A stretch of DNA of 64,000 nt, taken from the NCBI RefSeq assembly GCF_021390675.1, contig NZ_JAJEJV010000004.1:2914001-2978000 (forward strand), written 5' to 3'. The translations under genes were made by a program, and so were the position numbers. The first letter of the stretch is position 1. Every line of letters begins with the position of its first letter. The notes under the pieces are model-generated. The model was not told the DNA's origin. It saw nothing but the letters and a program-made list of their open reading frames with translations, and did not search any database. This DNA comes from Dyella sp. 2HG41-7 (GTDB lineage Bacteria; Pseudomonadota; Gammaproteobacteria; Xanthomonadales; Rhodanobacteraceae). This document shows positions 35,492 through 36,758 of the stretch, piece by piece.

Positions 35492-35504
35492 CCCCTCCAG
35501 CCAG

Positions 35505-35533
35505 TTGTCACAACCCAGCCCACCACGTATCAT
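35505..35533 (+). promoter_or_regulatory. Promoter for tRNA-Ser
   Basis: TTGTCA and TATCAT with a 17-bp spacer, ending 33 bases before the tRNA. Confidence 0.55.
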
Positions 35534-35566
35534 GTTCGGCTCGCGCTGACCAACGCGCACCTTTTC

Positions 35567-35706
<140 letters not shown>

Positions 35707-35730
35707 CCCGATGAGAACCCATACGGTTCG

Positions 35731-35907
35731 ACACAAATTTGCCTGGAGCAAATTTGGACAACCGAAGGTTGGCCCCGTAGCGCATAGCGCGAAGGGGCGA
35801 GGCCCATGGATGGACCGAGCACAATTTGTCAGGAACAAATTTGGACAGCCGAAGGCTGGCCCCGGAGCGCATAGCGCGGAGGGGTGAGGCCCAGGGAAGG
35901 GCCGAAC
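35731..35907. repeat. Two tandem copies of a structured ~88-bp repeat
   Basis: Copy A is 35731-35820 and copy B 35821-35907. Shared core: AAATTTGGACA, CCGAAGG, TGGCCCCG, AGCGCATAGCGCG, AGGGG, GAGGCCCA. Each copy can form CAACC-GAA-GGTTG (A) or CAGCC-GAA-GGCTG (B), a compensated base-pair change, then CCCC...GCGC-ATA-GCGC...GGGG, then GGCC...GGCC. No protein reading is credible. The rest of the gap to the PP2C gene (35908-36056) shows nothing further. Confidence 0.75.
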
Positions 35908-36056
35908 AATCCCACCCAACGCACGAGAAGTATGGCCTCGCGATAAAAAGTACGAAGTAGCTCAACCATGGCGCATACACAATTCATGATGCCCCAAATC
36001 TTTTGCGCCACACCCCCACATCCGTCATGCTGCGCCCATCCACCCGGCGGACACCC

Positions 36057-36758
36057 ATGATCGAATTTGGACACGGAACCCATGTCGGATTGCGCCGCAC
36101 GCGCAACGAAGACACCTACTACGCCGACGCATCGCTCGGCTTGTTTTTAGTTGCCGACGGCATGGGCGGACACCAGCATGGCGAAGTAGCTTCGGCGTTG
36201 GCGCGCGACACCATCGTTGGAGCCATCCGCAACGGAAAGTCGCTCGCGGAAGCCGTGCACGTCGCGGCTGCGCGCTTGTTGGAACATGCGCAACGCTATG
36301 ACGATGCGCTGCCGATGGGCACTACCGTCGCGGCGATCCGTTTTTCCGAACAAGGCTACGAGGTAGCGTGGGTGGGCGACAGCCGCATCTATCAATGGAA
36401 AAACGGTTTGCACCAGATCAGCCACGATCATTCGTTGGTGCAGCAACTCGTTGAAGCCGGCGCGATCGACGAAGCGCAAGCCAAACGCCATCCACAGCGC
36501 AATATTCTCACCCAGGCGCTAGGCATCACCGCGCTCGACCAATTGCATATCAGCATGGCAAAAGGCCAGCTTGAAGTCGGCATAAGTTTCTTGTTGTGCA
36601 GCGATGGACTCACCGAAGAAGTGGACGATGCCGGCATTGCGCGGATCATCGGTCGCACCGATTTGGCCGCGCAGGAGTGCCTGGATCATTTACTGCTGGC
36701 CGCGCTTGAGGGCGGCGGCAGCGACAATATCACCGCGATCTTGGCGCGCATCCACTAG
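36057..36758 (+). CDS. PP2C-type serine/threonine phosphatase
   Basis: This 233-residue protein has the metal-binding motifs RRTRNEDTYYAD, LFLVADGMGGHQHGE, VAWVGDSRIY, LLCSDGLTE and GGGSDNITA. It should dephosphorylate phospho-Ser/Thr proteins in the cytoplasm. No Ser/Thr kinase or FHA protein is adjacent in the window, which is less common since such pairs often cluster. The frame opens at 36003; the MIEFGHGTHVG methionine at 36057 is where homology starts. Shine-Dalgarno is weak. It converges on dnaQ, 12 bp apart. Confidence 0.9.
   Translation: MIEFGHGTHVGLRRTRNEDTYYADASLGLFLVADGMGGHQHGEVASALARDTIVGAIRNGKSLAEAVHVAAARLLEHAQRYDDALPMGTTVAAIRFSEQGYEVAWVGDSRIYQWKNGLHQISHDHSLVQQLVEAGAIDEAQAKRHPQRNILTQALGITALDQLHISMAKGQLEVGISFLLCSDGLTEEVDDAGIARIIGRTDLAAQECLDHLLLAALEGGGSDNITAILARIH

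Follow-up and report, generated by a model that had tools for sequence, protein, structure and literature searches.

Introduction

The closest described counterpart of the arrangement reported here is RtT RNA (RF00391) of the Escherichia coli tyrTV locus, an annotated sRNA in which a tRNA gene is followed by an inverted tRNA 3' arm, a core seated in a T-loop and a direct tRNA 3' end. In E. coli K-12 the plan of tyrTV reads GGGGAAGGATGAGAAG.. (the inverted arm), GGTTCG, a hairpin core and AATCCTTCCCCCACCACCA. The core begins with AC, ends with GAGT and is seated at GGTTCG^AATCC (the caret marks the insertion point), with one copy in the third repeat having GGTTCGG instead of GGTTCGA. In 4692 of 5426 E. 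coli genomes the RtT core was present, at 1-10 places each (median 3).

Other described systems share single features with this arrangement. Rickettsia palindromic elements (RPE) are presented as short palindromic repeats located between genes and also in frame inside protein genes (PMC2229807, PMC10969869), with a length of 105-146 bp (PMC2229807). REP/BIME elements are described in PMC3733652 as based on a unit of 20-40 bp with a GTAG or CGTC tag, while integrating islands are, according to PMC9897764, accompanied by an intact and a partial tRNA copy. A description of the element analyzed here was absent from the open-access literature as searched by title and start of abstract, and also from the available passages of PMC9897764, PMC10969869, PMC2229807, PMC3733652 and PMC12306157; it may be published elsewhere.

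Results

Organization of the locus behind tRNA-Ser(CGA)

The analyzed window (the whole stretch of 64,000 nt) is part of contig 4 of the 4.26 Mb genome of Dyella sp. 2HG41-7, and window coordinates correspond to contig coordinates minus 2914000. An intact tRNA-Ser(CGA) gene was identified at positions 35567-35656 of the forward strand, both by ARAGORN and by the Rfam tRNA model (60.8 bits), and is followed by a terminator at 35660-35690. A perfect inverted repeat with 30-nt arms and a 5-nt loop (35642-35706), found by repeat search and folded, runs through the tRNA 3' end, its trailer and the stem of the terminator, and then through the mirror image of these. In the minimum-energy fold of tRNA plus terminator, the tRNA 3' end paired with this palindrome and the tRNA itself was left unfolded.

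Outward from the intact tRNA, the unit runs in the order terminator, inverted arm, GGTTCG, element and AATCCCACCC. Its left arm, at 35692-35724 on the reverse strand, copies the acceptor strand and T-arm of the tRNA-Ser in inverted orientation (TGGCGGAGAGGGTGG..GATGAGAACCCATAC or, in the outward reading, TGGCGGAGAGGGTGG..GATGAGAACCC), a layout repeated at other tRNAs. The direct 5' half of the T-arm, GGTTCG, lies at 35725-35730 on the forward strand and forms the left flank of the insertion site according to the sequence and the TTCG^AA rule. Two forward-strand copies of the element follow, copy A at 35733-35819 (103.6 bits with the covariance model R1, built on the element without its right arm) and copy B at 35821-35906 (99.9 bits). 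The right arm AATCCCACCC (35908-35917, forward strand) is a copy of the tRNA-Ser 3' end in which the direct 3' half of the T-arm is followed by the beginning of the acceptor strand, assigned from the sequence and from the class test on relatives described below; acceptor sequence beyond AATCCCACCC is eroded. Since GGTTCG lies to the left of the element and AATCCCACCC to its right, the element occupies the T-loop of what is a second, incomplete tRNA 3' end. A preliminary description of this DNA had recognized the tandem repeat at 35731-35907, which both the repeat search and the covariance model recovered as two copies with 86% identity, but had missed the upstream tRNA-Ser gene, the partial tRNA copy and the parallel with RtT.

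No known Rfam family was detected over copies A and B, the 12 above-cut-off Rfam matches of the window being all tRNAs. Rfam miRNA matches in the region fell on the perfect terminator palindrome, below the cut-off, and were rejected. Overlapping reading frames of 97-129 aa were present in the repeat region of the window. A third partial match (GATCGAATTTGGACA) was observed at 36056-36073, probably by chance, where the next gene begins; by eye, this gene resembles a PP2C phosphatase.

Structure of the element and its conservation

Copies A and B are arranged in tandem with a spacing of 87 nt (35736-35821 and 35823-35908 in the repeat search). Copies A and B both fold into a series of four hairpins, the third of which carries an inner GCGC hairpin. 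The compensatory change proposed previously, from CAACC/GGTTG in copy A to CAGCC/GGCTG in copy B, was present, as were the GCGC stem and the CCCC/GGGG outer stem in both copies; in addition to these, each copy contains a left hairpin (AAATTTG..CAAATTT) and a right hairpin (GGCC..GGCC). With respect to dinucleotide shuffles, the folds of copies A and B had z values of -3.6 and -3.4 on the forward strand and of -4.5 and -3.7 on the reverse strand, respectively.

In an alignment of 33 copies, standard pairs occupied 97.8% of 913 cells, and paired cells fell to 20-48% in slid controls. Double changes were found in 15 of 28 pairs, compared with a shuffle mean of 4.9 and with none of 500 shuffles reaching as high a value, which bears out the selection on structure that had been suggested from the two window copies. 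At alignment columns 30-44 a GC pair was present in 32 copies and an AU pair in one, the A-U of copy A being unique there. G.T mispairs exceeded A.C mispairs (210 vs. 42, or 63 vs. 38 without one closing G.T pair), counts to be read with the RNA model behind the alignment in mind, as it favours G.U. Covariation and mispairs thus supported a structural constraint on the element. Its length is typically about 70-90 nt, arranged as a string of hairpins, and was 67-94 nt in all but 3 of 238 copies.

Distribution of related copies

A search for further copies, as had been proposed, resulted in 5 copies at 3 loci of the Dyella sp. 2HG41-7 genome and in many copies in relatives, so that the first half of the refuting condition given in the preliminary description, a lack of further genomic copies, does not hold. 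At a cut-off of E ≤ 0.001, R1 matched 114 of 147 genomes of the family (23 of 26 genera), 146 of 369 genomes of the class (116 of 272 genera) and 70 of 398 genomes drawn from the phylum (41 of 213 genera); the E-values of R1 are rough, and weak matches in GC-rich genomes may be due to chance. Four copy-rich genomes yielded 22, 39, 19 and 21 R1 matches. A DNA pattern scan of named genomes recovered at least 120 stretches, and among the matches listed were Dyella, Rhodanobacter, Dokdonella, Rheinheimera, Alishewanella, Microbulbifer, Solimonas, Halopseudomonas and Methylococcales.

Copy A had no match in plasmids at E ≤ 0.01, and in phage it matched two unannotated records. Plasmid matches to a query containing the tRNA (68 records) were rejected, as the 20 listed corresponded to the tRNA with at most 22 nt beside it. 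In a viral contig (L211:183-686), an open reading frame with the element-coded peptide MTNSSGTNLDS near its start was observed.

Linkage to tRNA and other structural RNA genes

The same layout was found in this genome behind tRNA-Ser(GCT), with two tandem units whose copies lie 181 nt apart, and behind tRNA-Gln(CTG), where it was recognized by eye. When the 46 tRNA genes in this genome were surveyed for partial copies, only the two serine loci and one tRNA-Gly followed by an identical tRNA-Gly were flagged; the test was coarse and missed the Gln locus, so further partial tRNA copies are possible in this genome.

In the first set of loci (this genome and relatives), 29 of 32 contained a tRNA-Ser, tRNA-Gln or tmRNA gene. 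Among the pattern matches listed (134, including one viral stretch, with 8 contig-edge matches set aside), 78 were located less than 700 nt downstream of a same-strand tRNA (Ser, Gln or Arg) and none downstream of an opposite-strand tRNA. A set of 238 unique copies was obtained from the best 150 of 156 and the best 150 of 158 matches, after 62 rows had been dropped as duplicates or for short flanks; loci L191-L211 were absent from the second search. In this set, a tRNA or tmRNA gene was present within 450 nt on the same strand for 146 copies and on the opposite strand for 7, and 85 copies had none. The same-strand share was 43/50 among the best family matches, 17/26 in the copy-rich genomes, 65/117 in the pattern scan (among the matches listed) and 21 of 45 in the class sample (opposite strand 5, none 19), and, given that model and pattern were derived from tRNA-linked copies, the first samples are biased and the tRNA linkage in them is inflated. 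Overall, the tRNA-linked copies spanned four serine isoacceptors, Gln, two Arg and tmRNA.

The distance from tRNA end to element was 70-79 nt in 60 of 83 first units. When the arms of these units were compared with tRNA classes, a test in which the local tRNA was kept in its own class and in which misses occur, the right arm agreed with the local class in 6/6 cases for Arg and 1/2 for tmRNA, in 9/13 alone plus 2 tied for Gln, and in 32/62 alone plus 25 tied for Ser. For the left inverted arm the values were 4/6 alone plus 1 tied (Arg), 1/2 (tmRNA), 6/13 alone plus 5 tied (Gln) and 40/62 alone plus 14 tied (Ser). A comparison based on mismatches was less clear than the class test, with the local tRNA best or tied in 42 of 83 right arms and 40 of 83 left arms. 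At the tRNA-Arg locus L238, direct partial copies were present without an inverted arm, which weakens the view of the inverted arm as a fixed product of insertion. A reading of the inverted arm as a retroviral-like primer-binding site was also dropped, because a TGG start is missing in several units (Ser-gga in L008; the E. coli units).

Full tRNA-Ser copies interrupted in the T-loop adjoin intact ones at L012, L120, L130, L152 and L158. Relatives of the element were also located behind tmRNA and, by reading, at apparent 5S rRNA 3' ends (L132, L097 and L157), with Rfam, run on L132 alone of these three loci, confirming the 5S gene there. In Rhodanobacter fulvus (L155:1690-2360), two anticodon-loop units precede an intact tRNA-Ser(TGA) and one T-loop unit lies behind it. 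A second, different hairpin-rich module (..GTTCGCTCCGGCATCCTGCCTCCGCAGTCG and variants) was observed directly to the left of the element, in the same T-loop position, at L064, L086, L096, L107, L121, L137 and L151.

Junctions and orientation of the insertions

The ends of the element were AC..pyrimidine in 223 of 238 copies (15 otherwise), and 187 of these 223 were located at G^A, with the remaining 36 elsewhere. Removal of the element restored the T-loop TTCG^AATCC, with no duplicated base, in 87 copies under a strict pattern, and the serine-tRNA anticodon loop CTTG^AAAA in 4 copies. A loose D-loop pattern was found in 11 copies, including clear D-loops at L242, L220 and L228 and at least one case, L104, that is not a D-loop. 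Target site duplications were absent, the joined flanks giving TTCGAATCC or in-frame ATG starts with no repeated bases; a MITE with target duplication was accordingly rejected as a candidate.

Nested copies were found at L241 and L235, with the element inserted within the loop of another copy at AACG^A. The L241 locus (1056-1600) contains several copies, one of them nested in another just past a start codon and one further copy inside the following reading frame. At L256 (314-1574), five copies in both orientations lie around or within a stretch that has two matches to group II intron D1-D4.

All T-loop insertions were in sense orientation (87 under the strict pattern and 113 under the loose one, which admits copies whose left flank is another module; 0 antisense). 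Among 102 copies with exact TTCG^AA flanks, 100 continued with TC, as in a sense T-loop, and none with CC. Because TTCGAA is its own reverse complement, a G^A rule acting on DNA only would permit both orientations. In all these orientation counts the copies are not independent, as they are common to related species.

Copies at the starts of protein genes in relatives

In 8 of 238 copies the element followed an ATG; those that opened a long frame measured 72, 75 or 78 nt, each divisible by three. These comprised GlyS in L138 (75-nt element after the start codon, 716 aa), NarH in L123 (72 nt, 544 aa), HsdS in L225 (78 nt, 470 aa), a NarH-like gene recognized by eye in L146 (72 nt, frame cut by the locus end) and a 78 aa frame with a 75-nt element and no Pfam match in L112. 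In L108, L179 and L256 the element followed an ATG with no long frame (16, 31 and 53 aa, respectively). Homology of relatives began at residue 28 of HsdS, immediately behind the element-coded part, in 4 of 8 listed matches, and at residue 26-27 of NarH, also in 4 of 8; the remaining listed matches of both extended 3 to 18 residues further towards the N-terminus. Long open frames were also scanned for across the copies, but the 157 frames recovered on both strands were uninformative, since GC-rich DNA is open by chance.

Comparison with known systems

The window unit shares with RtT the position behind a tRNA, the inverted tRNA 3' arm with GATGAGAA, a hairpin core that starts with AC, ends with T and is seated at GGTTCG^AATCC, and the direct tRNA 3' end; a variable copy number is a further common feature. 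Tandem periods were also close, with 178 nt in RtT and copies 181 nt apart in L002. RtT is located behind tRNA-Tyr, whereas the element lies behind tRNA-Ser, tRNA-Gln, tRNA-Arg or tmRNA, the window copies being behind tRNA-Ser(CGA). The RtT model gave no match to positions 35500-36000 of the window even at E ≤ 10, while in a positive control it recovered four copies in an E. coli stretch (132.9-137.5 bits); conversely, R1 had one match in E. coli, of 10.4 bits, covering one hairpin. The window unit has the plan of RtT, yet, as judged from these model searches, is not a member of RtT by sequence.

The sRNA family sX4 (RF02223) matched positions 35552-35711 with 60 bits, below its cut-off of 70. 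Its model spans the tRNA-Ser and the inverted T-arm copy, and the match ends before the element. The 3' arm of the sX4 model falls on the inverted tRNA arm, so this family may represent the same layout with no element inserted.

The likeness to RPE is one of habit, and rests on short palindromic repeats between genes and on in-frame copies in protein genes, the latter seen in relatives and not for the window copies. The two differ in length (67-94 nt here, with the 3 exceptions mentioned, vs. the 105-146 bp given for RPE) and in the strong tie of the element to tRNA loops. As with integrating islands, an intact and a partial tRNA copy accompany the insert, but here the insert is about 90 nt and lies inside the loop of the partial copy. 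With at most about 30 codons, the element is too short for an integrase gene, which is thus excluded by size.

Discussion

The family is established as dispersed, with covarying stems, a site preference and nested copies, and with in-frame copies in protein genes of relatives. From this distribution and from the junctions we infer mobility: the two tandem copies in the window probably belong to a short palindromic element that is mobile but non-autonomous. Such an element would enter mostly between G and A, leave its target unduplicated, and either strongly prefer, or survive best in, the loops of structural RNA gene copies, chiefly the T-loop TTCG^AATCC. An enzyme supplied in trans would transpose it, most likely into single-stranded or folded targets. 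The partial tRNA duplication may be linked to insertion, with the partial copies arising either by unequal exchange between sister copies after insertion into an essential tRNA or by copying through RNA. Any function would be secondary, for instance as a tRNA 3'-trailer RNA by analogy with RtT, and the habit of the element may best be read as similar to that of RPE.

A functional non-coding RNA unit of tRNA operons, comparable to the RtT trailer and disseminated between tRNA loci through duplication and gene conversion, is a possible explanation, though a clearly less probable one. Under it, the closing stem of tRNA-like arms and the hairpin core would be selected as RNA, in line with the architecture shared with RtT, the sense-only T-loop copies, the tRNA-element distance of 70-79 nt in most first units, the excess of G.T over A.C mispairs (with the bias of the model noted above) and the sub-threshold sX4 match over tRNA-Ser and inverted arm. 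It leaves the in-frame copies in protein genes and the nested copies unexplained, however, and the right arm is eroded in the window. As a mobile element may have acquired an RNA role, the likelihoods of these two explanations overlap. The resemblance to REP/BIME elements suggested in the preliminary description, which would imply mobilization by a RAYT transposase, was not supported: the element is short, palindromic and repeated, lies between genes and keeps its structure, but it is larger than a REP unit, has no GTAG/CGTC tag at its ends and starts with AC, mostly at G^A. Moreover, the Y1 (RAYT) transposase domain PF01797 had no match in this genome (5 of 14 control genomes had matches), so that we regard this origin as very improbable. 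A chance local tandem duplication would account for two tandem copies in one place, but hardly for the many copies elsewhere or for the covariation; relatives in many bacteria, in tRNA fragments as well as protein genes, indicate a real family, and chance can practically be dismissed.

Returning to the mobile element, the sense-only orientation of T-loop insertions suggests that an RNA step, strand-specific single-stranded DNA or the selective loss of antisense copies was involved, and as such hints at an RNA step or at selection at the level of the transcript. A stronger version, in which the element moves through RNA, entering loops of sense transcripts at G^A, with the chimera copied back into DNA and with RtT as kin, appears improbable at present. 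Its targets would be the T-, D- and anticodon loops of tRNAs, tmRNA, 5S rRNA and mRNA just after the AUG. The chimeric RNA would be reverse-copied to DNA beside the parent gene, a process that would leave partial, partly inverted tRNA copies carrying the element, and E. coli RtT would then be an old member of the same kind.

These results tie an old oddity, the tyrT repeats and RtT of E. coli, to a much wider pattern in many Gammaproteobacteria, in which hairpin elements occupy a single, exact base step within the T-loops of partial tRNA copies. The element also codes for peptide leaders in housekeeping enzymes, and the pattern offers a testable origin for tRNA-adjacent sRNAs and tRNA fragments. 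With T-loop insertions in sense orientation only, an RNA step comes into question; if the route through RNA were true, the element would represent a minimal bacterial retro-parasite of structured RNAs.
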